Assembly (NCBI GenBank): GCA_947577075.1
Contig: CANPTW010000001.1
Location: 1 to 64,000, forward strand
Direction: 5' to 3'
Source: an uncultured Oscillibacter sp.
Lineage (GTDB): Bacteria; Bacillota; Clostridia; Oscillospirales; Oscillospiraceae
DNA length: 64,000 nucleotides
The notes beneath the pieces are model-generated. The model was not told the origin of the DNA, did not search any database, and worked only from the letters and a program-made list of their open reading frames with translations. Position 1 is the stretch's first letter, and the number at the start of each line of letters is the position of its first letter. Positions 8,915 to 32,580 of the stretch are shown in pieces. The position numbers were made by a program, and so were the translations under genes.

Positions 8915-9991
8915 TCATGCTACCACGTTGGCGGCAAAGATGTAGGGGCAGTAGTTGAGCGGTGCGGCCAGGGGCCGGGTAGCCAAACGGAGTTTCCGCT
9001 GATCCTTGTCCTGGTCGATGCTGAACTTGGGAATGCGGAGGCCTACGTGAGTGGCGGGTTCCGTGGAGCCGTAGTCAATCTGAGTAATGCGGCCATACAT
9101 CAGGTGCCCGCATCCAGGGGCCGTTACCATGGCGCCGTTCACAGGAAAGTATTTCTGCGTTGCGCCGGAGACGTCCACATAGGACTCGTTGACTTTGAAC
9201 AGGTTCAAATCGAATCCGCCAAAATTAAGCACTCCCATGAACACTACGCCGGGATAACCTGTGAGCTGCTGCTTGATCTCCCCGACAATGATGCCGCTCT
9301 GCTTGTTCAGCGTATCGCGCACATCCTTGTTCTTTACGATAACAGCCGCTGTCTTGGGGCCAAGGATCAGGTCAACGGCAGGCAGCCCCCGGTCAGACAA
9401 GAGCGTACTCATAGCCTCGACATCACCGAAGAAGTCGCCATCCGGGTCGCTCCACTGCTTGGCAACCGTGAAGATGTGATCGCTGGTGTCGTCAAAGAAT
9501 CTGACGCGCAACACCTCGCCCTCGGTCTTGTCGTCCATGTAGGTCTGCATGGTGCAGGCGTTGTTGATCATCGTCTGCACGGCCATCCACTCCTCACGGC
9601 GGCGGATACGTCTGTCCATGTCAGTCAGATCACGGAGCTGCAGACGCGCAGCACGCTGAGCAGGGGTGGAGTTAGCGTAGATGGCCTCGCCAAAACCGCG
9701 CTTGTTCAGTTCATCCATGGTAAGGAGGCGGGAAGGGGCGATATAAGCAGGCTCAAACTCATGGATTTCGTAGCCCTGACGCCCCATGGGGATGTCGCCA
9801 GCGCGCCGGTCCACGAACGCCGCCATCTTCTGGTCTCCCCGCATATACTCGGTGAGCACCTTGTCAGCGTCGAAAACATCATCCTCGCCAGTGACGAAAT
9901 ACCGGTCACGAAAGAAAGAGGGAACCGGCACAATTTCCTCGGTAATGGCCTTGAGGACATAGGTATCAAAAAAGTTCAGTGTAGCAGGCAT
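8915..9991 (-). CDS. Major capsid protein (lambda gpE family)
   Basis: A 358-residue protein from the ATG at 9991 (MPATLNFFDTYVLKAITEEI), chosen because AAGGAGGG lies just upstream. The HK97-fold lambda E family is indicated by the N-terminal helix, the SFFRDRYF and MRGDQKMAAFVDRRAGDIPM segments, and the late YGRITQIDYGSTEPATHVGL region with RIPKFSIDQDKDQRKL. It follows the decoration protein gene, as in lambda D-E order. Confidence 0.92.
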   Translation of the reverse strand: MPATLNFFDTYVLKAITEEIVPVPSFFRDRYFVTGEDDVFDADKVLTEYMRGDQKMAAFVDRRAGDIPMGRQGYEIHEFEPAYIAPSRLLTMDELNKRGFGEAIYANSTPAQRAARLQLRDLTDMDRRIRRREEWMAVQTMINNACTMQTYMDDKTEGEVLRVRFFDDTSDHIFTVAKQWSDPDGDFFGDVEAMSTLLSDRGLPAVDLILGPKTAAVIVKNKDVRDTLNKQSGIIVGEIKQQLTGYPGVVFMGVLNFGGFDLNLFKVNESYVDVSGATQKYFPVNGAMVTAPGCGHLMYGRITQIDYGSTEPATHVGLRIPKFSIDQDKDQRKLRLATRPLAAPLNYCPYIFAANVVA

Positions 9992-13657: not shown

Positions 13658-15604
13658 TCACCATTCGTCATACTGTTTCGCCCCGGCAGACCGCTTGACC
13701 CGGGAGCGCCGGGCTGGGGCGGGTGCTGCGGCGGTTGTAACCGCCTTTCCTCTGGATGCCTGGAGCCAGCGGTCTATGGCGTCCAGGTCTTTGGGGATGG
13801 CCTGGAACGCCGCCATAGCGTAGTTGCGGCAGTCCAGGGCCTCGTTGCGCTCATGCCCCGGTATCTTTTTCCACTGCCAGGGCTGGCGCTTTTCCTTGTC
13901 GTAGACAAGCCGCTCCGACAGCAGACCGACGAAATATCCGGCGCCATAATCGTCCCGCTTGGGGAAATGGCAGTATCGGGGGCCTGGTTCCTCCACCCGC
14001 AGGGCGTCCATGATGCGCTGCTTGCCGGAGTCTACGCCGATTTCATACATCCAACAGCTGCCAATGTAGCGGCCTTTTATCATGATTTTCTGCTTTTTGG
14101 GCCGGTCGGTGTAGGGCGCGTCGTGCTTGGTGGAGCCCATGATGGCGAACACCTTCTTGCTAATCCTGTTGCGGCACTCTTGCCGGACTTCACCGGAGAA
14201 GTGACCGCCCTGATCTACAAAACTCAGGGACAGACGCAGCGTGATACCGTCCGCGAAGTGAAACTGGCGGTCGAACAATACCTCGTCCAGCTTCTTCCAT
14301 GTGTCTGGGTCGTCCGGTCTCCCCATGACGATGCCCTTCTCAATGCCCCAAGTCTGCCCGAAGTGACCATGGCCCACGACCTCATACTCCATGCGGTCGT
14401 CCTGGGTGTCCACACCGGCGGTCAGCACCAGAACGCCGTCCGGCAGCTCAATGGGCGTCCCGCCCTCTTGCAGACCGTAGGGCTCGACTTCCCGTCTGGA
14501 CATCAGCGTGTCCTCGCTGGCGAGGTCGCCCCGATCTTCCCACAGCTCGCCGAAACGGGTGTTGTAGACCACCTGCATTTTCTCGGTACTGCCCCTGGCA
14601 TACAGATATTCCAGGATGGTGGATTCCCAGGAGGCCCACGGGCTCACAAAAGAATTCAGCCAAAAAGAACGGACGCCCCGCTTGTAGGCGTCCGGGTTCT
14701 CCGCAACCCATTTGGCTGGCTGTCGCTTGATTTCCGCCTCCTCCGAGACGCAGGCACAGCCGGGGCACAGGTACAGAATATTGCTGACCTCGTATTGGGT
14801 CTTTTTCTGGACAACCGTTTCTTTGATGTCGAAACGGATATTTTCAAATTTAATGTCGTGGTACTCCCCGCAGTGAGGACACTGGACGCACCACCGCTCC
14901 ATCGTCCCCTCATAGAAGGAGTCCGCGATTGCGCTGGCCCCCTTGATTGTGGGGGTGCTGACCTCCACCGCCTTGGCGTTGTAGAACGTGATTTGTCGGG
15001 CCATTGCCAGTTTCCAGGGGTCGCCCTCTTTGCCGGCCGACACCGCCCAACGGTCCCGCTCGTCCCCAATCACATAACGGATGGGCTTGGATGCCAGAGC
15101 GTGGGCCTCGGTGGAGCCGCAGAGCGTCAGGATGCCGCCGGGGTATGTCTTTTGCAGAATGGTGTTTCCGCTGTCTCTGCTCTTGGGCGAGGCCACCTTC
15201 CGGCGCAGCGTTGGGCAGTCCCGTATCATCGGGGCGATTCTCAGCTTGGAATACTCCTTGGCGTCCACGGTGGTAGGATGGACAAACAGGATGGAACTGG
15301 GGTCTTGGTCGATGATGTAGCCGATGATATTGTTCTCTAGCTCCGATTTGCCGATCTGGGAGGATGACACTAGCACCAGCCGCCGTATCTTCGGGTCGGT
15401 GAATGCGTCCATGATCTCCCGTAGATAGGGCGTCCGACTGACACGGTATGCGCCGGTCTCCGCGCTGCTCTCGGAGGACAGGCGGCGCTTCTTCTCCGCC
15501 CACTCTGTAACAGTGTAATTCTGCGGGGGCTTCATTCCGGCGAGGGCCTTTGAAATGGCGATATTGAGCCGGGTCGCCCTGACCGCTGCCTGCATATCAG
15601 CCAT
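13658..15604 (-). CDS. Terminase large subunit (lambda gpA-like)
   Basis: About 648 residues from the ATG at 15604 (MADMQAAVRATRLNIAISKA, GGAGGA upstream). Upstream in-frame starts lack a good site. The ATPase half has a Walker A-like SSSQIGKSE and Walker B-like VIGDERDRW. A zinc-binding pair (CPHCGEYHD and CPGCACV) follows. The C-terminal nuclease begins at LTAGVDTQDDRMEYE with acidic residues. It cuts and pumps DNA into the prohead. Overlaps the small subunit gene by eight bases. A copy of the phage palindrome lies near its 3' end. Confidence 0.93.
   Translation of the reverse strand: MADMQAAVRATRLNIAISKALAGMKPPQNYTVTEWAEKKRRLSSESSAETGAYRVSRTPYLREIMDAFTDPKIRRLVLVSSSQIGKSELENNIIGYIIDQDPSSILFVHPTTVDAKEYSKLRIAPMIRDCPTLRRKVASPKSRDSGNTILQKTYPGGILTLCGSTEAHALASKPIRYVIGDERDRWAVSAGKEGDPWKLAMARQITFYNAKAVEVSTPTIKGASAIADSFYEGTMERWCVQCPHCGEYHDIKFENIRFDIKETVVQKKTQYEVSNILYLCPGCACVSEEAEIKRQPAKWVAENPDAYKRGVRSFWLNSFVSPWASWESTILEYLYARGSTEKMQVVYNTRFGELWEDRGDLASEDTLMSRREVEPYGLQEGGTPIELPDGVLVLTAGVDTQDDRMEYEVVGHGHFGQTWGIEKGIVMGRPDDPDTWKKLDEVLFDRQFHFADGITLRLSLSFVDQGGHFSGEVRQECRNRISKKVFAIMGSTKHDAPYTDRPKKQKIMIKGRYIGSCWMYEIGVDSGKQRIMDALRVEEPGPRYCHFPKRDDYGAGYFVGLLSERLVYDKEKRQPWQWKKIPGHERNEALDCRNYAMAAFQAIPKDLDAIDRWLQASRGKAVTTAAAPAPARRSRVKRSAGAKQYDEW
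13733..13742. repeat. Palindrome GGTTRYAACC, copy 2 (exact)
   Basis: GGTTGTAACC inside a perfect 16-bp palindrome GGCGGTTGTAACCGCC (13730-13745). It lies in the terminase large subunit gene and is read as GCG GTT ACA ACC GCC. Confidence 0.75.
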
Positions 15605-16169
15605 TTTCTTCATCCTCCGCGGCAAAACTCTCCCAGTCACGCCGTTCCCGCACCCGCTCCTCGTACTTCTGCGGGTCGTACTTGTATTGCGACAGCTCCC
15701 GCATCACCTTGAATATCTCGGCCCGGATAAGCTCGGACGCCTCTGCCGCTGATGTGATGTTGGCGACGTCTACGGCCAGGCGCCCAGGCAGGGCCAGGAG
15801 CGCCCCCCGTATGGCGTAAATCAGATCCTCCGTCATAGCGGCCACGTCCTCGGAGCGATGCATCTTTCCCTCCAGCTCGTCAGCCTCCAGCTTGGCAATT
15901 TTGGCCTTGGAGTGCTTCAGTGTGACCTCCGCCGCCTGCTTCGCCCGTTCCAGCTTCATGTCCTCGTCGGATACCGGTTCCTTGTTGATGGTGGCGATGT
16001 ACCGTTGCAGGGAGTCTGCCAGCAGCAGGTGTCCACGCTTCACGGTCTGGAGCGTCCCGCCCCGGATCAGCTGATAGATGCGGTCGGCGCTCAGGCTGAG
16101 GAGTGCAGCCAATTCCGCAACGCTGACCTCTGTGTCTGCACCCAGCTTTTCACGTTTTGCCGCCGCCAT
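15597..16169 (-). CDS. Terminase small subunit (Nu1-like)
   Basis: A 190-residue protein. The N-terminal half holds a winged helix-turn-helix (SVAELAALLSLSADRIYQLI, then GGTLQTVKRGHLLLADSLQR) as in lambda Nu1. This is followed by a charged coiled coil with HSKAKIAKLEADELEGKMHR and a C-terminal segment for large-subunit contact. It should recognise the packaging site. GGAAGGAGG lies upstream of the start. An AT-rich inverted repeat just upstream could be part of its DNA target. Confidence 0.88.
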   Translation of the reverse strand: MAAAKREKLGADTEVSVAELAALLSLSADRIYQLIRGGTLQTVKRGHLLLADSLQRYIATINKEPVSDEDMKLERAKQAAEVTLKHSKAKIAKLEADELEGKMHRSEDVAAMTEDLIYAIRGALLALPGRLAVDVANITSAAEASELIRAEIFKVMRELSQYKYDPQKYEERVRERRDWESFAAEDEENG

Positions 16170-16419: not shown

Positions 16420-16944
16420 TCAGATGGTGGTATACATCTCGGCCTTGCTGTATGAGGTCTTGCCCTTTATCATCATCTCCAGGAAGTCGTCTCTGGAGAA
16501 GTCAGACAGGCGGAATACTTCTTCAGGCCTCATACCCAGTTGACGCCCTATCTCTTGAATGGTCTTGCCCTCGTCCAGCAGTCGTTTCACGATTGCTTTC
16601 ATGGGCTCTAACAGGTGTGTTCCTCTCGCCCGGTTGTGCGTGACGGTGCCGTAGATGTCCTCGCTGGCGTCCTCGTGGAACACTCTCACCACGGGGACTT
16701 TGCCATCCAGCATGGACAGCAACGGCTCCTCTCCTGCCACAGTCCAACGATGGAACCCGTCGATGATGGTATAGTCTGGCCGCACGACAATAGGGAGTGT
16801 CCATCCATTGGTGAGGATGGATTGGGTCAGCAGCTTCAGATTCTCCTTGCTGACCTTGTTGGGGTTGTAGTCGTTCGGTTTGAGCAGTTGCCTGTCCACC
16901 CATTCCAGGGTAGACAGAGGGGCCAACAGCTTTTTGTCACCCAT
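16420..16944 (-). CDS. ParB/sulfiredoxin-fold protein with HTH (IbrB-like), last gene of the cassette
   Basis: A 174-residue protein from the ATG at 16944, eight bases inside the previous gene. The N-terminal two thirds carry the ParB/Srx fold (LLKPNDYNPNKVSKENLKLL, then TIIDGFHRWTVAGEE, the catalytic-pocket GxHR-type motif). The last third has a helix-turn-helix (TIQEIGRQLGMRPEEVFRLS). Pairs of such a protein with a DUF3440/PAPS-reductase-like protein are known as IbrB-IbrA in enterobacterial prophage regions, where they affect expression of surface proteins. Here it ends the symporter cassette. Function in phage biology is not established. Confidence 0.8.
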   Translation of the reverse strand: MGDKKLLAPLSTLEWVDRQLLKPNDYNPNKVSKENLKLLTQSILTNGWTLPIVVRPDYTIIDGFHRWTVAGEEPLLSMLDGKVPVVRVFHEDASEDIYGTVTHNRARGTHLLEPMKAIVKRLLDEGKTIQEIGRQLGMRPEEVFRLSDFSRDDFLEMMIKGKTSYSKAEMYTTI

Positions 16945-18091
16945 GCGCCTCCACCTCCCTCCGTTCAGCCTTGGCATCCTCGATGTACTGGCTGTAGATG
17001 ATTTGGTAGAGGGCCCGGTATGACCTCAGCTTGGGGTCGCCTTTTTGGAGGGCCTCGTACATTCGCTGGTAGTCCTTGGGCGTAGCGAACAGGCCTATCT
17101 TGATGAACAGGTTGCGGTAGGTCTTTGCCACCCGGAGCTTGTTGGGGGTGTTGAAATACCGGGGCATATCGGAGAACATCTCCGTGAGCAGGGCTTTGTA
17201 GTCCTTGGTGATTTCCTCGCCCTCCGCTTTCCGGCGGGCCCGGGAGCGCCGGCCAAACATCTCACTGTCCCAATAGAGGGCAGCGAGGTAGGCGTTTGGC
17301 TCCCGCCGGATCACCCGCTCCATGAGATCGGGGTAATACTCGTTCATCTGCACCAGCGTCCGGGCCGTGTCGATGGAGAAAAACTGCGACACCCGGAGTT
17401 GGTTCCGGTTCGTGCCGGACTGCCAGAGGTAGAGGTAAATCTGCGGGATCTCCACGCCCTCGTTGCGGAGGTAGAGCCACACGTCGTTGGTGGTCCAGTC
17501 ATAGATGGGGAAAATCTGCCTGCGGCCGGTCATACCTTTGCCGCCAAGGTTTAGCCGCGCCATGTATTGGAGCCGTTGAACGGACTCCGCCGAGCGTACC
17601 CCTGTCATGGTGATACCGTCCATGCACACCCGGGGCATAAAGCTCTGGTAGTTGTCTTTCCTGGGCCTCAGCATGGGGTGGCTCATAATGGCAAAAGGAG
17701 GGGGCTGTCTCACCCACACATCCCGCTTGCGCTTATCCCAGCAGATGAACGTCTCCTCCTCCGACAGCTCGTTAAAGCAGTTGAAGTGTTTGACCTCCAC
17801 GCAATACCACTCGAATTTGGCCCCGGCATACATGAATTTGCGGCGCCAGTCCATCACCGTCTTCTCGATGCAAGGGAAAATGGCCTCCTCGTCCACAAAC
17901 TGGACGGTCAGCAGGGAGGGGTCAATCTCCCCGCTCTGGATCAGGCTGAGGGTCAGTTGGGCAAGGGTCAGGCTGTCCTTTCCCCCGGAGAACGACATAT
18001 AGACCGGGACACCGTTGCGGAACGCATTGCGGATTCGGATTTTAGCCGCCGTCACCACGTCCATGTCGGACTGTATCCGTTTTACAGCCAT
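16937..18091 (-). CDS. PP-loop PAPS-reductase-like protein, DUF3440 type (IbrA-like)
   Basis: A 384-residue member of the adenine-nucleotide alpha hydrolase fold. The PP-loop SFSGGKDSLTLAQL lies at about residue 33. Further motifs are TVQFVDEEAIFPCIE, WDKRKRDVWVRQPPPF, TMTGVRSAESVQRL and IFPIYDWTTNDVWLYL. The Cys-containing ECGIH tail of genuine sulfite-forming PAPS reductases is not seen, so it more likely adenylates an unknown substrate. A C-terminal domain (after residue 270) is typical of IbrA/DUF3440. Both gene boundaries overlap ParB-fold genes. Confidence 0.85.
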   Translation of the reverse strand: MAVKRIQSDMDVVTAAKIRIRNAFRNGVPVYMSFSGGKDSLTLAQLTLSLIQSGEIDPSLLTVQFVDEEAIFPCIEKTVMDWRRKFMYAGAKFEWYCVEVKHFNCFNELSEEETFICWDKRKRDVWVRQPPPFAIMSHPMLRPRKDNYQSFMPRVCMDGITMTGVRSAESVQRLQYMARLNLGGKGMTGRRQIFPIYDWTTNDVWLYLRNEGVEIPQIYLYLWQSGTNRNQLRVSQFFSIDTARTLVQMNEYYPDLMERVIRREPNAYLAALYWDSEMFGRRSRARRKAEGEEITKDYKALLTEMFSDMPRYFNTPNKLRVAKTYRNLFIKIGLFATPKDYQRMYEALQKGDPKLRSYRALYQIIYSQYIEDAKAERREVEAHG

Positions 18092-18693
18092 ATCTTTTCC
18101 CCACAGTGAGGGCAGACCACATACTGACGGACAGGCTCTTTCGGCTCCTCTTGTGCGGGGGCCTCCTCCGGCTCGTCGTCCCCGCCCTCGTCCGCAAGGC
18201 CGGCGGTCATGTAGAGGTCTTTCCGCTCCCGGGCCGCTTTGATTTCCTCAATTTCCTCCTCGTCAAGCGTCCCATACTCCTGGAGCTTTTCGGAGACTTC
18301 CCCGGCCTGGGCCACCATGCTTTTCAGCAGCTCCTCGTCAAAACCGGGGATGTCGAGGTCGTCCTTCAGGTCAACCAGGAAAGCGTCGAACGTCTCCAGG
18401 TCGTCCACACCCAGGCCGAATATCTTGTTGTCGGCCAGCATGAGCTTTTTCTTCTGGTTCTCAGTCAGGCCCTCCACCTGGAGGACGTCGGCCTCCTCCC
18501 AGCCCAGCCGGAGGAGGGTTTCAAACAGCCCGTTCCCGGCCAGGATCACGCCCACCTCGTCCGCCACGATAGGGCGGAGCTGTCCGAACATGGAGACGCT
18601 GCGCTCAAACTCTTTCAGCTGCTTCTCGGTGTGCATCCGCACATTCTGCTCCGGCCTTTGCAGGCTGGACAGGGGCATCTTCCTGATGTTCAT
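18082..18693 (-). CDS. ParB/sulfiredoxin-fold protein with acidic tail and CxxC
   Basis: A 203-residue protein. Residues 1-90 hold a ParB N-terminal-like fold (SLQRPEQNVRMHTEKQLKEF, then VILAGNGLFETLLRLGWEEA and LTENQKKKLMLADNKIFGLG). Unlike the other ParB-fold proteins here, the usual GxHR motif is GNGLFE and I see no clear helix-turn-helix. The C-terminal 60 residues are very acidic and end with VVCPHCGEKIW, a single zinc-knuckle half. It overlaps both neighbouring PP-loop genes and is likely their partner. Confidence 0.78.
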   Translation of the reverse strand: MNIRKMPLSSLQRPEQNVRMHTEKQLKEFERSVSMFGQLRPIVADEVGVILAGNGLFETLLRLGWEEADVLQVEGLTENQKKKLMLADNKIFGLGVDDLETFDAFLVDLKDDLDIPGFDEELLKSMVAQAGEVSEKLQEYGTLDEEEIEEIKAARERKDLYMTAGLADEGGDDEPEEAPAQEEPKEPVRQYVVCPHCGEKIWL

Positions 18694-19472
18694 TTTCCGG
18701 CCACCTCCAGATATGCGCGCGCTCCCGGCAGATAGTCAGCGGCGGTTATAACCACGCTCTTGTCGATGTTATAGACCTCCCGCCAGCCGTTCTCCTCGCT
18801 GCCCGTCCATTGACGGGCAGGCCAGGGGTGAGTGCCGCAGAGATAACCGTTTGCCCAGCCGTAGATAGGGGGCAGCGGCAGTTGGTGGTAATGGATGAAC
18901 GCCAGGATATGCTCGTGCGACCAGTCGGAAAGGGGGCTGAACCGGGTGATACCCTTTCCGTCCGTGTAGATATTGGATTTGCGGCCGACATAGTTGCCGT
19001 CCGCACGTCGGCGGCCCAGGATGATGGAATCCAGCTTGTGGGTCTTGAAGTAAAGGCGCTGCGCCCGGTGCTGGACGATGGAGAACCACTGAGCCGCAGT
19101 CTTGCTGTCCTGGGGGAACAGCATTTCGGGGTGACGGCTCAGCCATTCCAAGTCCTGCCCGGTGTTGATGATCTCGCAGCCCTCCGGCTTGTTGGCCTCT
19201 ACCCAAGCCATAAAGGCGGGGTATTCCAGATTGCACACGCCGATCATGCTGTCGGTCACGCCGGCCATCTCGCAGACTTTAGCGAGGACAACGCTGTCCT
19301 TACCGCCGCTCCAGGCATAGGCGGCGTGCTCTCCCTCGGTGGTGGCCCTGATGTCCTCCACGGTGGAGGCGGTCAGGGCATCCAGTTCCTCACGGGACAC
19401 GGCCTGCTCGATAGAGGCGACGGCCTCCAGCCAGGCGTCGTTGCTGATGCTCTGCTTTCTGCCGAGGCTCAT
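18690..19472 (-). CDS. PP-loop PAPS-reductase-like ATPase, second copy
   Basis: A 260-residue protein with PP-loop AYAWSGGKDSVVLAKVCE at about residue 50 and later motifs IILGRRRADGNYVG and TRFSPLSDWSHEHILAFIHY, the PAPS-reductase family core. It has no ECGIH tail and no C-terminal domain, so it is a minimal version quite unlike the IbrA-like neighbour. It starts at ATGA overlapping the symporter stop and ends overlapping the ParB-fold gene. A palindrome copy lies at its 3' end. Confidence 0.83.
   Translation of the reverse strand: MSLGRKQSISNDAWLEAVASIEQAVSREELDALTASTVEDIRATTEGEHAAYAWSGGKDSVVLAKVCEMAGVTDSMIGVCNLEYPAFMAWVEANKPEGCEIINTGQDLEWLSRHPEMLFPQDSKTAAQWFSIVQHRAQRLYFKTHKLDSIILGRRRADGNYVGRKSNIYTDGKGITRFSPLSDWSHEHILAFIHYHQLPLPPIYGWANGYLCGTHPWPARQWTGSEENGWREVYNIDKSVVITAADYLPGARAYLEVAGK
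18744..18753. repeat. Palindrome GGTTRYAACC, copy 3 (exact)
   Basis: GGTTATAACC within the second PP-loop gene, read GTG GTT ATA ACC GCC. GTT and ATA are unusual codons in this GC-rich gene set. Confidence 0.7.
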
Positions 19473-20863
19473 GCCCTCGCCCCCTTTCGGGAGAACGCCA
19501 GGGAGACGGCTCCGCTCAGCAGCACCGTGATAAGACTGCCGGCCGTCTTATAGGCGGCGATGTTCCAGATGTTCCCCACAGCGAACACGGGGAGGCCGAT
19601 GCACAGGGAGGCAACGATACCGGCAAACACGCCGTTGGGGCTCAGCCGCTTGCCCAGGAGGGTCAGCGCCGTAGGTAACAGCGTGGAGGCCCGCAGGGTG
19701 CCGTAGAACAAGAACAGGTGGGTCACGGTCAGCCCCGGGATGTTCGCCGCCAGGATACCCACCAGGAGGAGGCCGGCCATCGCCAGCCGGGACAGCCTCA
19801 GCCGTTCCTTGGAATCCATCGTGGCGGAGATTCGCCAGTCGGTGGTCAGCGACGCCGCGGCGCAAAGGTTGCTGTCCACCGTGGAGAGCAAGCCGGAGAG
19901 CACCATCATCAGGAGCGGAGCCAATACCCACGGCGGGAGCAGAGACGTGATAAACTCCACGTTTACCATGCCAACGTCTGCGGGGATAAAGCCGGTACCG
20001 GCTGCGGCAAATCCTATAGTCCCCATAGAGAGGGGGACGACGGCAAAAATCAGGGCGCCGATAAAGAACGATCTGCCGATGCGGTCCTTGCGGATCGCAA
20101 AGGTGCGCTGCCAAAAACACTGGTCGCCAAACGGCCCGGAAATCAGGCCGACGGCCGTGGGGAGGCCAAAGCCCAGGAATACAGAAAGCCCCGTCTCCGA
20201 GAACAGGGACGCATGGTCGCCCGTAATGGAGCCGAGGCCCGCCGTGACAGCGCCCACCCCTCCGGCCCTGGAAAGGCCCCAGGGGACGAGGAGGGCGCAG
20301 CCAAGTAGAATAATGGCAAGCTGGATAACGTCGGTTGTAACCGACGCCTTGAGGCCGGAAAAGCACGAATAGGAGTAGGCAATCACCGCAAGGATGATTG
20401 TCATGCTCCAGAACGGCGCTCCGGTGATGGCGGACAGCATTTTGCCTCCGGCCAGGAGCTGGACGGCGGTGGACAGGACGGCCAGCGCCCCCAGCTGGAA
20501 CGAGTACGCCCCCTTGACTTTTCGGGAGCCGTAGACCGTGGCCATGTAGCCCGTCAGGGTGACGCCTTCCGGGTACGCAGACCTCATACGTTTTGCGAAC
20601 GGGATAAAAAGAATCAGGCACAGCACGTTCGGTACCAGGAACCAAAACAGCCCCGGGATACCGCTGGTGTATGCCTTTTCCGCAGATACGAAGAGGGAGG
20701 GTGCCCAAATCCATGTTGCGGCTATGCTCATGGCAGCAACCCCTGTTCCGATGCGGCGGTCAGCTACATGGAAACTCTCGGCATCATGCGTCCGCTTTGT
20801 GAATACCACCGTGGCCCCAATCATCAAGGCGGCGTAGGCGATAAGCACAACAATGCCTAACAT
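19469..20863 (-). CDS. Phage-borne sodium:solute symporter (SSS family)
   Basis: A 464-residue polytopic membrane protein from the ATG at 20863 (AAAGGAGG upstream). About 13 hydrophobic segments are visible, e.g. MLGIVVLIAYAALMIGATVV at the start. SSS hallmarks include SIAATWIWAPSLFVSAEKAY, SCFSGLKASVTTDVIQL and LLSTVDSNLCAAASLTTDW (the GLLST..S..N.A..SL.T.D Na-site region). The substrate cannot be told from sequence. It is the first gene of the five-gene cassette, 150 bases downstream of a consensus promoter. A transporter of this class is very unusual in a phage. Confidence 0.88.
   Translation of the reverse strand: MLGIVVLIAYAALMIGATVVFTKRTHDAESFHVADRRIGTGVAAMSIAATWIWAPSLFVSAEKAYTSGIPGLFWFLVPNVLCLILFIPFAKRMRSAYPEGVTLTGYMATVYGSRKVKGAYSFQLGALAVLSTAVQLLAGGKMLSAITGAPFWSMTIILAVIAYSYSCFSGLKASVTTDVIQLAIILLGCALLVPWGLSRAGGVGAVTAGLGSITGDHASLFSETGLSVFLGFGLPTAVGLISGPFGDQCFWQRTFAIRKDRIGRSFFIGALIFAVVPLSMGTIGFAAAGTGFIPADVGMVNVEFITSLLPPWVLAPLLMMVLSGLLSTVDSNLCAAASLTTDWRISATMDSKERLRLSRLAMAGLLLVGILAANIPGLTVTHLFLFYGTLRASTLLPTALTLLGKRLSPNGVFAGIVASLCIGLPVFAVGNIWNIAAYKTAGSLITVLLSGAVSLAFSRKGARA
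20333..20342. repeat. Palindrome GGTTRYAACC, copy 4 (exact)
   Basis: GGTTGTAACC inside a perfect 18-bp palindrome CGTCGGTTGTAACCGACG (20329-20346). It lies within the symporter gene and is read TCG GTT ACA ACC GAC. Confidence 0.75.
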
Positions 20864-20948
20864 TTGCAATTCCTCCTTTGTTCTCCCCGCTGGCGAGGCG
20901 AGGGTATCACAAAGGGGCGGCGTCGGGCCCTCCTTTCCCGCAAAAGTA

Positions 20949-20986
20949 GAACCGCCCCGCACCTAAAGAAAGGCGCAGGGCGGTTC
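20949..20986 (-). promoter_or_regulatory. Leader hairpin before the symporter gene
   Basis: Arms GAACCGCCCTGCGCC and GGTGCGGGGCGGTTC (15 pairs with wobble) enclose an 8-base loop, about 30 bases after the predicted transcription start and 85 bases before the symporter ATG. It is followed only by TACTTTT, so it may be a weak attenuator, an RNA-stabilising element or a protein/ligand-responsive leader. It could also stop read-through from upstream genes. Confidence 0.55.
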
Positions 20987-21013
20987 CCGGCTGATTAAGA
21001 TTTTACAGCTTGC

Positions 21014-21042
21014 ATTATAGCATTTTGGAATTGCCTTGTAAA
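21014..21042 (-). promoter_or_regulatory. Consensus sigma-A promoter for the symporter/PP-loop/ParB cassette
   Basis: On the minus strand: TTTACA (21042-21037), 17 bases, TATAAT (21019-21014). Only the second -35 base pair differs from consensus. It is in the 195-base gap after rusA and points into the symporter gene. It would let the cassette be expressed independently of lytic operon read-through, even in a lysogen. Confidence 0.75.
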
Positions 21043-22941: not shown

Positions 22942-23838
22942 CTACGTTTCTGCCTCCTCCTGCAAAATGTGTTTGACTACAACATCCGTACACTCCCTCA
23001 CAACGGTTGAGGCAGGCACAGCTCCCTCAAAGGTTTTGCCGCACCACTCGTCTACCCAGCCGTCAGAGGGCAAACCGGCGTATCGAAAGAATCTGCGCGA
23101 GAACGCTCTTACCTCGTCGGGGGACAGCGGCATCAGTTCATACCGCAAAGGGAACCTCCGCACAAGGGCCGGGTCGAGCTGGTCAAAGCGATTGGTGGTG
23201 CCGATGATGATTGCATTGTTGCGGGTCTGGTCAAGCTCTTGCATGATAGCAATTACTACGCGGTTCATTTCCCCCATCTCATGGGCCTGCCCCCGAGCTG
23301 TCCCTATGGCGTCAATTTCATCGAAACACAGGACACACGGGTTGGTGCGGACGTACTCAAAAATTTTTGCAAGATTGGACTGTGTACCGCCCAAGTGGGA
23401 ATCTACGACGCTCGAAAAGCGGACATAGGCGAACGGTAGCCCGGCTCTATGGGCTATGTACCGGGCCAGTTCAGTCTTCCCACACCCGCTCTCTCCGTAC
23501 AGAATGAGAGCGGGCAGATAGGGAATGCCCATGCTCGCAAGGCGCTCGGATGCACGATAGAGTGATATGGTTTTCTCCGCCGCCTCCGCCTCCGTTTTGC
23601 GGAGCAGGAATTTTGCCTCCGGGAAAATAGAGGAATCATCGACCACCAAAAGGCCTTTAAGCGTGTCGGGCAAATTCACAAAGCCTTTTCGCGCCTCTAT
23701 CCGACGGATCATATCATCCCGGAAAGCAGCATCCCTTTGGGATGTGATTGCACCCAAGATACACCTGGCCTGAAACTGGGCCCGTCGCATATCTCCATCG
23801 CACACATACCGAATAAGGACGCGCTCGTCATTATTCAT
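22942..23838 (-). CDS. AAA+ ATPase
   Basis: A 298-residue protein from the ATG at 23838, overlapping the radical SAM stop (ATGAATAA). A longer frame exists but would lie inside the upstream gene. It has Walker A LILYGESGCGKTELARY, a pore-like RFSSVVDSHLGGTQSNLAKI, Walker B CVLCFDEIDAIGTARG, sensor 1 NAIIIGTTNRFDQLDPAL and arginine finger RRFPLRYEL, all of the classical (FtsH/ClpX-like) clade. An N-terminal 80-residue helical domain is not recognised. Partner and substrate are unknown. Confidence 0.85.
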   Translation of the reverse strand: MNNDERVLIRYVCDGDMRRAQFQARCILGAITSQRDAAFRDDMIRRIEARKGFVNLPDTLKGLLVVDDSSIFPEAKFLLRKTEAEAAEKTISLYRASERLASMGIPYLPALILYGESGCGKTELARYIAHRAGLPFAYVRFSSVVDSHLGGTQSNLAKIFEYVRTNPCVLCFDEIDAIGTARGQAHEMGEMNRVVIAIMQELDQTRNNAIIIGTTNRFDQLDPALVRRFPLRYELMPLSPDEVRAFSRRFFRYAGLPSDGWVDEWCGKTFEGAVPASTVVRECTDVVVKHILQEEAET

Positions 23839-24532
23839 TGGCAGTGCCCTCCATCTCTTTTCGCAGGCTGTCCTTGATGTAGTAGTCCAGGCCCCGGCCC
23901 TTGCAAATGGCCTCCGCATCCCGTCCAAACCGCGCCCAGTCGATGTTCGACGGGTGGTAATTCAACTTCCCGATTTTCACTCGCACGTCCTCCCCAATCA
24001 GGGAGAGGAGGGTCAAAACAAAGTCCTGCTGTATGACCGGCTCAAAAGAAATCCACTTTCTACACGGTGCATTCTGCATGATCCCAAGTCGCTGCCCCTC
24101 CGGTATTGCTCCCGGCTCCTGGCTTTCGTGGTCGGCTCCACTTACAGTCACACCATACCAATCCTCGCTGTCCAGCAGGTCAAAGTCCCGGCTCCCATCG
24201 CCTTTTGTGAGTATCTGAACGTGGTTTCCGCTCTCTTTGAGAACCCGGATAATCTCCCTGGTGGCGGAATCGTCACACCCTCTTGGGTAGGGGTCGCAGG
24301 TAAAGCACAGGTGAACGAGCTTGTCGGTAATGGACTCCCTCTCAATCTGTTTTTTGAGAGCCTCCACAATCCAGGCCCTGGGCTCAACACGGGAGTGAAA
24401 TGCCTCCCGCTCCCGGTGGAGCACCTGGGGCGCAAAGCAGTAATAGCAGCGGTGGGGGCATCCGGTATAGATGTTCACGGCATAGTCTCCGTACTCCTTG
24501 GCACGTCCTCTCGGAACATAGAGCGGTTTCAC
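23831..24532 (-). CDS. Radical SAM protein of the spore photoproduct lyase type
   Basis: A 233-residue protein with the cluster motif NIYTGCPHRCYYCFAPQVLH (Cx3Cx2C) at about residue 25, then LCFTCDPYPRG, VQILTKGDGSRDF and KWISFEPVI, typical of the SplB-like radical SAM clade. It lacks a second domain. Family members repair UV lesions or have unknown roles; in phages this type is recurrent but uncharacterised. It is coupled to a 41-residue Cys-rich ORF upstream and to the AAA+ gene downstream. Confidence 0.82.
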   Translation of the reverse strand: MKPLYVPRGRAKEYGDYAVNIYTGCPHRCYYCFAPQVLHREREAFHSRVEPRAWIVEALKKQIERESITDKLVHLCFTCDPYPRGCDDSATREIIRVLKESGNHVQILTKGDGSRDFDLLDSEDWYGVTVSGADHESQEPGAIPEGQRLGIMQNAPCRKWISFEPVIQQDFVLTLLSLIGEDVRVKIGKLNYHPSNIDWARFGRDAEAICKGRGLDYYIKDSLRKEMEGTANE

Positions 24533-25217: not shown

Positions 25218-25630
25218 TACAGATCCTCCACGCTGAACACGATCCCCACACAGAACAGCTCCCCGCCCTCGTAGATATTGAACGTCTCATGGGGGATGTC
25301 GGTCTTGAACGTCCAGCTTACCCCGCCTGCGCCCCACACGGCCTCGATGGTCTTGGCAGCATTTTTGGCGGCGGCAAAGTAGGGGCAGTTGCAGTTCTCT
25401 GCGGAGTCGCAAGCGGGCTCCTGGAGAACCCCGGCTTTAGTCAGCCGGATAGTAGTGCCGTCCCAAGCTCCGACCTCGCTGTCGATAGCTCCCCGGAGCT
25501 CCACATTATCGTCGGAGTAGCCGTAGACCACCACCAAGCCGGCATCGGCCGCCTGCCGCTCCTCGTCCTTGGCAATCTCCATGCCGTACTCACGGTCGGA
25601 GAGCATTTCAGAAAATTCTTTAGCTGTCAT
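25217..25630 (-). CDS. Phage protein of unknown function
   Basis: A 137-residue acidic protein (MTAKEFSEMLSDREYGMEIA) with beta-rich middle (GLVVVYGYSDDNVELRGAID) and CDSAENCNCPYFAAAKNAAK, then a C-terminal IFSVEDL. Similar proteins are common beside phage adenine methylases but have no known role. Stop overlaps the next start by one base. The start overlaps the Dam gene end. Confidence 0.62.
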   Translation of the reverse strand: MTAKEFSEMLSDREYGMEIAKDEERQAADAGLVVVYGYSDDNVELRGAIDSEVGAWDGTTIRLTKAGVLQEPACDSAENCNCPYFAAAKNAAKTIEAVWGAGGVSWTFKTDIPHETFNIYEGGELFCVGIVFSVEDL

Positions 25631-26448
25631 ATAAATTCTCCTTTTGGCGTGTCAAAAAGTGTTATTTGTCCCATTGGCTCGAAATTCATCCAAAGAATTT
25701 CTTCTTTTTGCTGAGATAACTGGTCTGTGGTTATAACCGCCTCTCGGTGCCATTCCCGGAGTTCTGCGTCGTACATAGGGCTTTTATAGCCACTTATTAG
25801 GACGGGCCCCTTGTGGTGTTTTAGCACGTCCAGGAGGTGCAGGTGGTCGTCGTCCGTCATTTCACATCGGTATTGTTTTCCTCGGCGGGTTGACAGGACA
25901 TAGGGCGGGTCACAGTAGACGAGGACTCCCGGAGCATTGAATCGGGATATGAGTTCCGCCGCAGGGGAACACTCAATCTGGACGCCCCGCAACCGCTCAG
26001 CGGCTGTTACGATAATGTCCGGCAGTTCTGTCCAGGCCTTTGCCGCATACGCTCTCTCCCGGCCGGCAACATCGTTCTTCCAGCCGACACGCTCCCCCGT
26101 AGTGCGAAAGCCATGGCCCATATTGCAACGAACCAGCAGACGGGCGGCGCGGTCAAAGGGCTCCTTTGGTATCTCCTTGGAAAACGCTTTGTCGTAGGAA
26201 GCTCGGGCATAGGGTGTGAAGTAGATATCCCTGGCCAGCCTCTCCGGATCTGACTTGATGCACTCAAACAGGTTTATCACTTCGCCGTCGAGGTCGTTTA
26301 TTGTCTCGATGTTCGACCGACTCTTGTTGAAGAACACCCCGCCCGAACCAAAGAACGGCTCCAAGTAGCTGTGGTGTGGAGGGAAAAAGCTGATTACCCA
26401 CGATGCAATGCCCCACTTGGCCCCCGGGTACTTCAGCACACAGTTCAT
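25627..26448 (-). CDS. DNA N6-adenine methyltransferase (Dam/D12 class)
   Basis: A 273-residue protein with the D12 class order: KYPGAKWGIASWVISFFPPH at the N-terminus, motif I YLEPFFGSGGVFFNKS, and catalytic motif IV VLVYCDPPYVLSTRRG. It uses AdoMet to methylate adenine in a short DNA site, likely protecting phage DNA from host restriction or marking it. It contains one palindrome copy. It overlaps neighbours by four bases each. Confidence 0.92.
   Translation of the reverse strand: MNCVLKYPGAKWGIASWVISFFPPHHSYLEPFFGSGGVFFNKSRSNIETINDLDGEVINLFECIKSDPERLARDIYFTPYARASYDKAFSKEIPKEPFDRAARLLVRCNMGHGFRTTGERVGWKNDVAGRERAYAAKAWTELPDIIVTAAERLRGVQIECSPAAELISRFNAPGVLVYCDPPYVLSTRRGKQYRCEMTDDDHLHLLDVLKHHKGPVLISGYKSPMYDAELREWHREAVITTDQLSQQKEEILWMNFEPMGQITLFDTPKGEFI
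25729..25738. repeat. Palindrome GGTTRYAACC, copy 5 (exact)
   Basis: GGTTATAACC within the D12 methylase gene, read GCG GTT ATA ACC ACA. One arm extends to GGCGG, the other does not. Confidence 0.7.
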
Positions 26449-29519: not shown

Positions 29520-29761
29520 TTGGCCTCCAGCATGGGCGGCAATTTCCGCTCTCCGCTCTGGCCGACGCCGTACTCCTCCGCATGGCGCAACGCTTTCAGC
29601 GACAGTTCGCCATTGTGGATGATGGTTTCAGCCACCGATGTTACAGCCTCGCTCCTGGTAATCTCTTTTTGGAGTTGTTCTTCGGTCAACTCGTCGTCTG
29701 TCAGCCGCTCCAACGTCTCAAAGAGGTAATTGTTAAGGTCGGTCAGTGTGTTCCGCATCAC
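29516..29761 (-). CDS. Small acidic helical phage protein
   Basis: An 81-residue protein starting MMRNTLTDLNNYLFETLERL, mostly helical and acidic, C-terminus with KALRHAEEYGVGQSGERKLP. This type recurs in Clostridia phages between ParB-like and HNH genes with no known role. Overlaps both neighbours by four bases. Confidence 0.65.
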   Translation of the reverse strand: MMRNTLTDLNNYLFETLERLTDDELTEEQLQKEITRSEAVTSVAETIIHNGELSLKALRHAEEYGVGQSGERKLPPMLEAK

Positions 29762-31110
29762 ACATCCCTCCGGCTGAGCAGTTGATGGGTGCCGTCCCGC
29801 ATAGCCTTTTCCTCGTCGGACATCTCATAGCCCAGGGAGATCAGGAAGTCGTAGAGGTGGTCGAGGTCGTTGTTGGGCTTGTGCAGGTACTCGTAGCATC
29901 TCTTTTCGGAGTTCCATTCCCAGCGCCAATACCCGTTATCGTCCCCATCAGCGGAGGCATAGGCACAAACCAGCAGCCCATACTCCGGGCTCTCGGCGAT
30001 GTGCTGTTCCGCCATGGCCTTAAAGGTGGGGTAATCTGTGTTATCGTCAATGTCCAGATCCAGAAGTTCCCCCACAATTTCAGCGTTGACGCCATCCTGG
30101 CTCCATGTGCCATCCCCAACGATAACGCAGGCGGCATATTCGCAAATTCCGGCCAAATGCTTTTTTGCGGCGGAGAAATCGGAAACGAACTCAGACCGCA
30201 GGGAGTAGTGCCGTTCGGTGATCTCTTTCAGCTCGGACTCAATCTGCTTGGCGATTCTCTCCCGCTCCTTGCGCTGGCGATCCTCCTCGGTTTCGACCCG
30301 CTCCTGCCGGTCTTTGTAGAGGTCGATTCCGTTGGTGCCAACGAGGTAATAGTATTTGACCTCGCCGGCGTCCTCAGGCCTTTCCACCATCTTGTCTTTG
30401 GGCGACCAGATGCCGAAGTTGGTGACATAATCCATGGGAACCGCAGTAGAGCCAACACAGTCCCGCTTTTCGATTTTGATGGCAAACGCCTCCAGGTCAG
30501 TTTCCCACTGAGCCATCCTGCGCAGATTCTTCTCCTCCTCAACAGCCTTTTTCAGAACGTCCCTGAAATTGGCGGTGCCGATGGCATCCAGGGCCTTGTT
30601 CTTCAACTCCGGGTTCTCGATTTTGTCCAACTCCATGTAGTCCTTTAGGGTAGCGCCCCGGGCCTCGGCTTTCTTCACCTTGTCGCTGTCCAGCTCCAGG
30701 AGCTTTACCCGGCGGCGGACGGTGGTCTGCGAGAAACCACAGTCCTTGGCGATGCTCTCCACCGTCTCGCCCATGTCCAGCATCATCTGGAACCCCTGGG
30801 CCTGCTCGTACAGTGTGAGGTCGCTCCGCTGGATATTCTCCATCAGCATGGTTCTGACCTGCTCCTGCGGGGTCATTTCCATTGCCACACAGGGAACCAC
30901 CGACAGGCCAGCTTTCTTGGCCGCTGCCAGACGCCGGTGTCCGATCACGACGGTGTACTGGCCACTGCTCATGGGCACGACGGTGAGGTTTTGCAGTACG
31001 CCATTGGCCTTGATGCTGTCGGACAGCTCCTGAATGTCCCCCAGGTTCTTCCGGGGGTTGTCCGGGTGCGGAAAGATTTTCGATACGTCGATATATTGCA
31101 ATTCAGGCAT
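29758..31110 (-). CDS. ParB-family DNA-binding protein
   Basis: A 450-residue protein. Residues 1-100 are a ParB N-domain (PHPDNPRKNLGDIQELSDSI, then YTVVIGHRRLAAAKKAGLS with the GHRR box), followed by a helix-turn-helix (ESIAKDCGFSQTTVRRRVKL). The rest is a helical and acidic region rich in Asp/Tyr. True ParB binds parS and spreads using CTP. Phage homologues may act in segregation, replication or regulation. No ParA gene is seen nearby. It is a candidate reader of the dispersed GGTTRYAACC palindrome. Confidence 0.82.
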   Translation of the reverse strand: MPELQYIDVSKIFPHPDNPRKNLGDIQELSDSIKANGVLQNLTVVPMSSGQYTVVIGHRRLAAAKKAGLSVVPCVAMEMTPQEQVRTMLMENIQRSDLTLYEQAQGFQMMLDMGETVESIAKDCGFSQTTVRRRVKLLELDSDKVKKAEARGATLKDYMELDKIENPELKNKALDAIGTANFRDVLKKAVEEEKNLRRMAQWETDLEAFAIKIEKRDCVGSTAVPMDYVTNFGIWSPKDKMVERPEDAGEVKYYYLVGTNGIDLYKDRQERVETEEDRQRKERERIAKQIESELKEITERHYSLRSEFVSDFSAAKKHLAGICEYAACVIVGDGTWSQDGVNAEIVGELLDLDIDDNTDYPTFKAMAEQHIAESPEYGLLVCAYASADGDDNGYWRWEWNSEKRCYEYLHKPNNDLDHLYDFLISLGYEMSDEEKAMRDGTHQLLSRRDV

Positions 31111-31129: not shown

Positions 31130-32020
31130 TCAAAATAGTGTCAGTTGTCCCGCAGGGGTTTCGCTCAGGGGCTGGGTCACTGGTTCCGGGTGCTGCTCTG
31201 CTGGTTGCTCCACTTCGACCGCCGCCTCTCCCTCGGCTATTGGTTCGACTGGCCGAGGGTCGGAGCAGACCAGCCGGTCAACCGTCCACCACAGTCGGCG
31301 GTAGTGCCACACGTCCCGGAAGTACATGGGGGTGTACCAAATGTTCTCCCCGTGAATGGGAATCAGGGGGTTCTCGTCCACGCCGACGCATGGGTGGGTG
31401 AGGCTATTGGCAATCACCACATACCCAGGGCACCCCAGCAGACTCAACTGGATATAGCACATACACCCCACGATGTAGTCGATGTCCTGGGCCACGAACA
31501 GCACCGACGTCTGATAGTTCACGTTCTGGAGCTTGCATTCATTGGCAAAGGCCACCAGGAGGGCCCCGGCTCCGCAGGCCGGGTCGTTGACGGATACCCA
31601 CCCACGCTGTTCGATTTTCTCCTCCAAGCCCTGGCCGTAGGTCATTTTTGCCATCATCTTGCACACGTTGTACGGTGTGAAGAACTGGCCGTTGTGGTCG
31701 TTTCCGAGATCCAGCGCCATGAACATTTCCCCAAGGAAGTCCTGGTCTGGATTTTCGTCGATGCCGCTGACGGTTTCAGCAAGCATCCTGCAGATGCACT
31801 CCAACTCCTGCTTGTCGTACTTGGAGGCCAGGGACATATAGGTTTCTTCCCTGCCCTTGGCGTTGCTCTTGTCCACGGTGTTGGAAATGCTGGCGGCAGC
31901 CATGACCACAAAGTCTGCCCAGACAGTCCAGCGATTGTGCCGCCTACACGCCTGGTCGAAAATGCGGATGAACTCTTTCTGCCGATCATTCCGCAGCTGC
32001 CGGGTGACACTCCGGGCCAT
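31130..32020 (-). CDS. HsdM-like methylase-fold protein lacking motif IV
   Basis: A 296-residue protein from the ATG at 32020 within TAATG (GGGAGGGGG upstream). It resembles the AdoMet-binding core of type I/N6 methylases: QFFTPYNVCKMMAKMTYGQG and motif I WVSVNDPACGAGALLVAFAN. The expected catalytic NPP(F/Y) is absent; at that place it reads GYVVIANSLTHPCVG. It may therefore be catalytically dead, use an unusual motif, or be a regulatory or restriction-decoy protein. Family members like this occur in Clostridia phages. Confidence 0.8.
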   Translation of the reverse strand: MARSVTRQLRNDRQKEFIRIFDQACRRHNRWTVWADFVVMAAASISNTVDKSNAKGREETYMSLASKYDKQELECICRMLAETVSGIDENPDQDFLGEMFMALDLGNDHNGQFFTPYNVCKMMAKMTYGQGLEEKIEQRGWVSVNDPACGAGALLVAFANECKLQNVNYQTSVLFVAQDIDYIVGCMCYIQLSLLGCPGYVVIANSLTHPCVGVDENPLIPIHGENIWYTPMYFRDVWHYRRLWWTVDRLVCSDPRPVEPIAEGEAAVEVEQPAEQHPEPVTQPLSETPAGQLTLF

Positions 32021-32580
32021 TACGCCCCCTCCCAGTAGTAGGGGTAGCAGAACACATGGCCTCCGATGGTGCCCCACACGTTGTCGTTCTCCCCCTTCTG
32101 GCTGAAGAACACGACCTCCGCAGGCAGGATATTCGGCCCGCTCAGGGCGGTGCTGATGGCTATGTACTGCGCCTCCGTCGGCTCGGCGGACTGGACGCGC
32201 TCGGCGGTGGAGAACTGCCCCTCCTGGTAAATCACTTCATCCAGCGTGTCAGGAAACGCCGGGGACAGCATACGGTTGAACACTACCTCGGCCACGGCCT
32301 GCTGTCCCTCGAACGGCTCACCCCGGGCCTCCAGCCAAATCACCCTGGCAAGGGTGTCCGTCTCTGCGTCGGTCAGGTGGATCGCCCCGTACCTCCCCGG
32401 GCACTCCGGCGCCATGGCCTCTGGCGTGGCCTCTATCGCCGGTTCCTCCGAGGGGATGGTGGTATAGGGGGCATCGATAAACTCGTCTGTCCTCGGCCCC
32501 TGGGGGCCCCTGGCGATACACAACGGTACCGCCAGGGCGAGGAGCAGAGCGAGAACGAAAATGAATGCTGCTTTGTTCAT
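32020..32580 (-). CDS. Secreted SleB-type cell wall hydrolase
   Basis: A 186-residue protein with a clear export signal (MNKAAFIFVLALLLALAVPL, residues 1-23), a Pro/Glu-rich linker and a Hydrolase_2/SleB domain from about residue 70 (LARVIWLEARGEPFEGQQAV with the catalytic Glu, then AEVVFNRMLSP). SleB-type enzymes cut cortex or vegetative peptidoglycan. It is coded in the replication block, not with lysis genes, so a role in superinfection control, host-surface change or sporulation/germination of lysogens is possible. Confidence 0.82.
   Translation of the reverse strand: MNKAAFIFVLALLLALAVPLCIARGPQGPRTDEFIDAPYTTIPSEEPAIEATPEAMAPECPGRYGAIHLTDAETDTLARVIWLEARGEPFEGQQAVAEVVFNRMLSPAFPDTLDEVIYQEGQFSTAERVQSAEPTEAQYIAISTALSGPNILPAEVVFFSQKGENDNVWGTIGGHVFCYPYYWEGA

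Follow-up and report, generated by a model that had tools for sequence, protein, structure and literature searches.

Pairs of IbrA- and IbrB-like genes occur in phages and prophages, where the gene for a PP-loop protein of the PAPS_reduct family lies adjacent to a gene for a ParB-fold protein. To our knowledge no chemistry has been established for such PP-loop/ParB pairs. In the accessible portion of a paper on glacial viruses, IbrA and IbrB appear solely as annotations (PMC4490671). Here we describe a computational analysis of a 64,000-nt stretch of DNA from an uncultured Oscillibacter sp. (positions 1 to 64,000 of contig CANPTW010000001.1, assembly GCA_947577075.1; hereafter the window), in which a prophage carries homologues of both genes, designated PapsB and ParB2. 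They form part of a larger cassette, which adds a second ParB-fold protein (ParB1), often a second PP-loop protein (PapsA) and a sodium/solute symporter-family transporter (SSS) to the pair, and which lies before the terminase genes. With moderate confidence we interpret this cassette as a nucleic-acid-modification module with an imported substrate, its target most likely being the phage's own DNA before packaging.

Several other described systems share part of this arrangement. Faecalibacterium phage FP_Taranis is an already described phage relative: gp35-gp38, annotated as 'transporter membrane protein', ParB, PAPS reductase and ParB, stand in the same order before TerS/TerL. Its transporter, however, is a 333-aa form, PapsA is absent and PapsB is 44% identical to that of the window. 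The terms 'transporter', 'IbrA', 'IbrB' and 'ParB' were not found by a term search of the main text of the Taranis paper (PMC5883640). Phage fusions of ParB with an N6/N4 DNA methyltransferase (phrog_498) share with the cassette a ParB1-family domain, the position upstream of TerS and, in L248, L256 and L309, the leader RNA described below, whereas the cassette has separate PP-loop enzymes and an importer and lacks a methyltransferase domain. DNA marking by Dnd phosphorothioation and by BREX type 4 likewise involves a PAPS_reduct-type PP-loop enzyme (DndC, BrxP), and DndC function requires conserved cysteines. A BREX review describes DndB as a ParB-superfamily protein and mentions a Cys dyad (PMC12839542). 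The cassette, in contrast, has no conserved CxxC and no other Dnd or BREX gene among its five. A full-text literature search, covering mostly non-subscription papers and judged from titles and abstract openings, found no description of the cassette or its leader among the matches listed.

The first-pass annotation of the window, made from the sequence alone, had proposed a five-gene set with overlapping junctions. The five genes were confirmed. All are encoded on the minus strand, SSS being the first, then PapsA, ParB1, PapsB and ParB2, and the terminase genes come next; the successive junctions overlap by 4, 4, 10 and about 8 bases (Table 1). The SSS start was placed at an ATG with AAAGGAGG; a longer ORF from a GTG (to 20962) would overlap the leader. 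For ParB2 an upstream ATG at 16977 is available, which would enlarge the overlap with PapsB to 41 bases; many relatives have no start available ahead of the position matching the inner one at about 16944. The transporter scored 86.2 bits against Pfam SSF (cut-off 22.8), and its closest solved chains are the DUR3 urea and choline transporters. The SSF domain is common to DUR3, CHT, PanF and PutP, whereas the cassette SSS forms a separate PHROG family and stays far below the NCBIfam equivalog cut-offs (PanF 62.4 of 328 bits, PutP 57.1 of 515.5 bits), by which no substrate class was assigned. ParB1, at 0.015 for Pfam ParB_N, remained below the cut-off, its match to PHROGs being clear (phrog_620). 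Pfam detected no methyltransferase domain and no further metabolic enzyme among the five proteins. DUF3440, the domain of IbrA that had also been attributed to the PP-loop proteins of the cassette, was not matched by Pfam in PapsA or PapsB; it is present in a related locus, L263.

The association of the symporter with PP-loop and ParB genes, which the first-pass annotation had put forward with recurrence as the check, is borne out in other genomes. A scan of IMG/VR with the window SSS as query gave 148 relatives. Among the best 80 of these, in which cassette genes were called with profiles made from the window genes, ParB1 was found beside SSS on the same strand and in the same order in 78 of the 80, and PapsB and ParB2 in 77 each. 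PapsA is an optional member, present in 63 of the 80, with at least 21 changes of state on a PapsB tree of 147 of 217 sequences (near-identical ones removed). The SSS loci lacking ParB1, PapsB or ParB2 were three cut by a contig end (L034, L039, L061) and the deletion form L009, the only incomplete locus away from a contig end. In a scan of one genome per species, 56 of 74 loci have SSS, ParB1 and PapsB; most are listed as Clostridia and four are metagenome-assembled genomes (MAGs) of Treponema. Flavonifractor sp. An100 and Agathobaculum desmolans ATCC 43058 each carry the complete cassette in their genomes. The cassette is thus widespread but sparse, since only 2 of 299 sampled genomes of the phylum match at E 1e-60, the window's own and one other. 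Among annotated phage records the single match to SSS lay on an unannotated gut contig; for PapsB, 213 phage records gave a match. PapsB of Riemerella, used as a viral query, gave one locus. A plasmid origin was considered and rejected, as only 15 plasmid records match SSS, all below 60% identity. Capture of the symporter from the host was rejected as well: the other SSS proteins of the host assembly, which is about 83% complete, share at most 27% identity with it, in line with the earlier expectation that it is not a close host paralogue.

The transporter is exchangeable while the remaining cassette genes stay. A second scan with Taranis PapsB as query gave 249 relatives. Of the 80 retained, 55 carry the 333-aa protein at the SSS position at more than 400 bits, two of these genes being interrupted where the contig ends, and 5 have a fragment of it where the contig starts; 10 have the SSS and 10 no called transporter. 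In these last 10 the contig begins within 200 bases of the first cassette gene. Transporter type changed at least 4 times on the PapsB tree. No Pfam family matches the 333-aa protein above its cut-off, nor does any PHROG. Compared as separate profiles, it aligned with the first part of SSS at an HH probability of 91.7%, and in hmmsearch the best E-value between the two was 5.8e-8, calculated for a set of only 93 sequences. We read it as a putative shortened SSS relative. In two of the 80 loci (L114:914-1651, L122:2154-2927) a glucosyltransferase-like gene (phrog_854) lies within the set, between the 333-aa transporter and PapsA, which fits a modification pathway.

Within phage loci, transporters lacking PapsB were confined to contig ends and to copies with deletions or decay (L009, L206, L234, L237 and others); elsewhere such transporters are distant cellular relatives. 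Nine non-phage SSS relatives, 41-51% identical, were inspected. Four of them (L226, L227, L233, L236) adjoin an AsnB-like PP-loop protein and a zinc-ribbon/Toprim-like protein, the AsnB-like proteins, in their called ORFs, lacking a Cys at position 2, and in L238 the SSS lies beside ProRS-like and alpha/beta-hydrolase genes. These neighbourhoods hint at a symporter paired with adenylating enzymes in amino-acid chemistry. In another, the MAG locus L231, a YcaO gene (2830-4329) was seen upstream of a duplicated SSS region.

The position occupied by the cassette before the terminase genes is a common slot. Among 101 loci with ParB2 and at least 3.5 kb of sequence after it (including L087, which has no transporter), 45 have a window-type large terminase within 3.5 kb of ParB2. 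In the other 56, an ORF of at least 390 aa was available for scanning in 52, and 44 of these matched the phrog_2 terminase large subunit; one matched a portal protein. A terminase therefore lies downstream in at least 89 of the 101 (45 window-type and 44 phrog_2). A scan of IMG/VR with the window large terminase as query gave 69 loci, 66 of them with new ids, and 35 of the 66 extend far enough upstream (at least 2.5 kb) for the slot to be read. It holds the full transporter cassette in 21 and a single gene with a ParB1 domain in 7; the remainder are the deletion form L253, an IbrA/IbrB-like pair (L263), a ParB2 remnant (L274) and 4 slots with nothing detected by these profiles. Ten proteins in or near the slot were scanned with Pfam. 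Four of the seven single genes were among them: three combine ParB with an N6_N4_Mtase domain (L248, L309, L256), in L256 with the methyltransferase behind the ParB1-like part, and one fuses ParB to Amidoligase_2 (2.5e-54; L268:3275-4657) behind a cassette-type leader. L249, L269 and L271 agree with L248 or L268 in length and N-terminus. Two of the four profile-empty slots also yielded matches, a PAPS_reduct protein in L266 and ParB with N6_N4_Mtase in L297, which falls short of the label threshold; L263 contains PAPS_reduct and DUF3440. The slot is thus often occupied by ParB-linked enzymes, several of them DNA-modifying. Decay was seen here too: ParB1 and PapsB are deleted in L009 and L253, which are the same contig, and in L274 only the ParB2 remnant is left behind the leader.

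One unit under one promoter with a structured leader had been proposed for the window, and the data agree. The promoter match alone is weak, a scan having found 2 promoter-like sites with 3.4 expected by chance; the promoter call is backed by the structured leader downstream, the fold of which beats 199 of 200 shuffles (z -3.3). Leaders of related loci commonly share the -10 element, a box GTAAAATYYTAATC about 6 nt further on, a hairpin, a GGGAAAGGAGG-like box and an anti-Shine-Dalgarno sequence (anti-SD). With up to 2 mismatches allowed, the box was found in 116 of the 174 leaders that are non-identical; among first-order Markov resamples 39 of 870 had it. The hairpin (P1) is in relatives a stem of varying sequence, often followed by a U-rich tract, and thus resembles an intrinsic terminator. 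In the window the anti-SD pairs with a segment that overlaps the ribosome-binding site of SSS (20872-20879), and in many leaders it can pair with that of the transporter. At least 6 Watson-Crick pairs over the SD core were found in 79 of 114 leaders with 28 distinct SD strings, a count with no control of its own; a related complementarity score lay above the mean of 10 shuffles in 101 of 115 leaders.

Covariation was analysed in a hand-picked alignment (A8) of 24 long-type leaders, 20 from transporter cassettes and four from slot alternatives. Its three helices have 90.5% paired cells and 100 doubly changed cells, compared to 33.6 in shuffles (sd 4.5; 0 of 500 as high) and 15-20 with a slid partner. 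An anti-SD of the CUCCU type is usually found in the loop of the second helix, and within a UCGCCA motif the GCCA is invariant. A covariance model from A8 recovers the window leader, which lies outside the training set (Table 1). At E 0.01 it matches 37 of the 80 SSS loci (6 being training rows), 39 of the 54 loci searched among the 55 with the 333-aa protein (7 training rows) and 28 of 62 others (4 training rows), the last group comprising 58 of the 66 terminase loci plus L087, L088, L090 and L171; these four gave no match. The leader precedes the ParB-methyltransferases L248, L256 and L309, and outside the training set the slot alternatives L249, L263, L269, L271 and L274 match as well. In 150 genomes of the family five matches were obtained: the window's own, L317, L318 and L319, which have cassette or ParB/methyltransferase-type genes and mostly a window-type terminase downstream, and one in G393 (L320), judged a chance match as no cassette or terminase label follows it.

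Rfam 15 gave no match at gathering score in the window, the best within the leader (E 0.21) being far under cut-off, and a known riboswitch was rejected on this basis. A ligand-specific riboswitch for the transporter was also rejected, the same leader preceding ParB-methyltransferase, ParB-amidoligase and IbrA/IbrB-like genes. Because the leader stays when the cassette is swapped, we read it as a control of the slot, probably a late-operon attenuator, and not as a riboswitch for the imported molecule. It is a separate find, a structured RNA with no Rfam match that heads the terminase block in many gut phages.

Table 1 Features of the cassette, its leader and the related cellular neighbourhoods (window coordinates unless a locus is named)
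Feature	Position	Strand	Evidence and remarks
Promoter TTTACA-N17-TATAAT	21014..21042	-	11/12 consensus matches
Leader box GTAAAATCTTAATC, probably near transcript 5' end	20993..21006	-	0 mismatches in window; recurs in leaders
Leader hairpin P1	20949..20987	-	Fold; 9/9 P1 pairs changed on both sides in alignment A8
GGGAAAGGAGG box after hairpin	20929..20939	-	Sequence; recurs in leaders
Anti-SD CCTTTGT	20909..20915	-	Fold; pairs with ACAAAGG 20875-20881
Whole leader RNA	20860..21006	-	Covariance model R1, 43.6 bits, E 1.6e-9
SSS, sodium/solute symporter-family transporter, 464 aa	19469..20863	-	Pfam SSF 2.7e-24; phrog_20720 1.1e-173, function unknown
PapsA, PAPS_reduct-family PP-loop protein, 260 aa, optional member	18690..19472	-	Pfam 2.5e-9
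ParB1, ParB-fold protein, C-terminal CPxCG, 203 aa	18082..18693	-	phrog_620 4e-44; phrog_498 'DNA methyltransferase' 6e-28
PapsB, PAPS_reduct-family PP-loop protein, 384 aa, SGGKDS motif, core enzyme	16937..18091	-	Pfam 4.4e-11; phrog_2302 6e-88
ParB2, IbrB-like ParB-fold protein	16420..16944	-	Pfam ParB_N 9.3e-7; phrog_2159 2e-69; start by homology
Terminase small subunit, downstream neighbour of cassette	15597..16169	-	phrog_57 3e-26
Terminase large subunit	13658..15640	-	Own-ORF profile: 1155 bits on Taranis gp42, annotated terminase large subunit
SSS + AsnB-like + zinc-ribbon/Toprim-like neighbourhood	L226:5161-9596, L227:1665-5898, L233:5030-9362, L236:5231-9401		Non-phage; SSS close to phage family

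PapsB keeps the SGGKDS-type PP-loop and a PIYDW region. The best solved chains for its profile are FAD synthase (1.6e-6) and CysD (4.2e-6), matched over stretches of about 35 residues, with weaker matches to a [4Fe-4S] tRNA thiolase, PAPS reductases and tRNA-lysidine synthase. Neither PapsB nor PapsA has a conserved CxxC motif, and in each only one cysteine is conserved above 80% (C97 in 47 of 48 rows of PapsB; 101 of 104 rows in PapsA). This cysteine pattern, together with the profile matches, fits adenylation better than reduction or sulfur transfer, which is no proof of it. PapsB remains below the NCBIfam cut-offs for DndC (19.2 of 290.4 bits) and for CysH-type TIGR02057 (17.7 of 254.2 bits). 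The ParB1 family corresponds to the ParB part of phage ParB-methyltransferases, the ParB1 profile scoring 204.8 bits on the fusion protein of L256. The ParB2 profile matches ParB/Noc/Spo0J structures; its top-listed structure match, an unrelated repeat protein without a passing stretch, was set aside.

In the proposed mechanism SSS or its 333-aa relative would import a small molecule, for which an amino acid or a small nutrient of the amine type is the most plausible candidate. PapsB, in many phages with the help of PapsA, would use ATP at its PP-loop for an adenylation, either of the imported molecule or of the target base or phosphate. ParB2 and ParB1 would bring this chemistry to DNA, ParB1 serving PapsB as the same domain serves the fused DNA methyltransferase. 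Transcription of the terminase/head block would begin with the cassette, after a leader that contains a terminator-like hairpin and conceals a ribosome-binding site. The slot points to DNA as the target because it is shared with DNA methyltransferases. A modification module is further suggested by the strict linkage of the genes, the exchange of transporters, the common leader, the terminase downstream, the nucleotidyl-transfer relatives of PapsB, the glucosyltransferase-like insert and the cellular AsnB-like and ProRS-like neighbours. We put forward only tentatively the more specific scheme in which a dedicated sodium-coupled importer supplies an amino acid or amine that the PP-loop enzymes adenylate and that ParB-guided chemistry attaches to phage DNA ahead of packaging, from a late-operon slot exchangeable with DNA methyltransferases and under an undescribed class of leader RNA with a terminator-like hairpin and an occluded ribosome-binding site. 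The observation behind the first-pass annotation is confirmed and its interpretation partly supported. Import with subsequent adenylation or transfer, nucleic acid being a possible acceptor, is retained as an inference from the slot shared with ParB-methyltransferases and a ParB-amidoligase. A benefit to the lysogen, also suggested there, found no support: since the cassette opens the terminase/head block, expression in the lytic phase appears likelier, a judgement from position alone.

A role in host metabolism, with the importer and PP-loop enzymes scavenging or activating a nutrient (nucleotide, sulfur or amino acid) that serves infection or lysogeny and with the ParB proteins as small-molecule enzymes or regulators, would agree with the presence of a transporter in intact cassettes. 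PHROGs places these PAPS reductases among moron/auxiliary metabolic genes, and phrog_424/2302 of a C. clostridioforme prophage carries the label 'host metabolism' in one paper (PMC11318856). The retention of two ParB-fold proteins together with PapsB, the slot common to ParB-DNA methyltransferases and the lack of a further metabolic enzyme and of a conserved CxxC make this reading unlikely. The shortened 333-aa form may also no longer be a transporter, in which case the SSS-like protein could be a membrane effector, a factor against superinfection or for host takeover. Superinfection is often blocked by phage membrane proteins, and the 333-aa form lacks part of the SSS length. Conserved residues are, however, spread over the whole length of the full SSS form, and in phage loci SSS lacks the accompanying enzymes only where a contig ends or where the copy has suffered deletion or decay; a membrane effector is therefore considered distinctly unlikely.

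The closest named relatives, IbrA/IbrB, are annotated 'co-activator of prophage gene expression', and the cassette stands at the head of the terminase block. It might therefore be a regulatory module for the co-activation of prophage genes or of late transcription, in which the transporter would sense or supply a signal. Where a ParB-methyltransferase replaces the cassette the leader is still present, so the promoter does not need the cassette, and ParB1 matches methyltransferase-linked ParB domains; regulation is accordingly regarded as very unlikely. A sulfur modification of the DNA, as in DndC or BREX type 4 systems, is suggested by a weak, short-stretch similarity of the PapsB profile to DndC (2.6e-6) and BrxP (9e-8) and by the [4Fe-4S] tRNA thiolase among its weak structure matches. 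A cluster might be bound by scattered cysteines. The sulfur reading, raised in the first-pass annotation as well, is nevertheless disfavoured to the point of being highly improbable, given the cysteine pattern and the absence of any other Dnd-type gene among the five.

Several observations weigh against a modification module with an imported substrate. Sets of ParB and PP-loop proteins that include no transporter also occur (L087, L088, L090, L263), and import is thus not required in every case. A common slot may simply hold unrelated accessory genes, as a moron position would, and the slot alternatives L266, L270, L297 and L298 have no leader match. Three Treponema cassettes (L217, L223, L224) have a coding-like upstream region in place of a leader, and in the short Lachnospiraceae-type leader just 1 of 15 predicted pairs covaries. 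All nine cellular relatives of SSS are distant and may transport another substrate; the neighbours in L228, L230 and L231 are AsnB-like by eye only, two of them having no Pfam match when scanned, and L242 has no adenylating neighbour. Locus counts are not independent, with near-identical phages within scans and contigs recurring across them (for example L066/L139, L051/L141/L247 and L009/L253). The prophage has two other methyltransferase-family genes, so the cassette need not fill that role. Substrate, modification and activity are all predicted rather than demonstrated.

If the modification reading is true, the cassette may be an unrecognised route by which phage DNA is tagged with an imported chemical. 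The recurring PP-loop/ParB pairs of phages in any case gain a handle in an importer that travels with the enzymes. Elsewhere in the window prophage are a D12-class adenine methyltransferase gene (25627-26445), a ParB+HTH gene (29758-31107) and an N6_Mtase-family gene (31130-32074). An AAA ATPase gene (22942-23928) and a radical-SAM gene (23831-24532) lie upstream of the cassette. In L015 an HNH-endonuclease-like ORF (9197-9619) is located between PapsB and ParB2.

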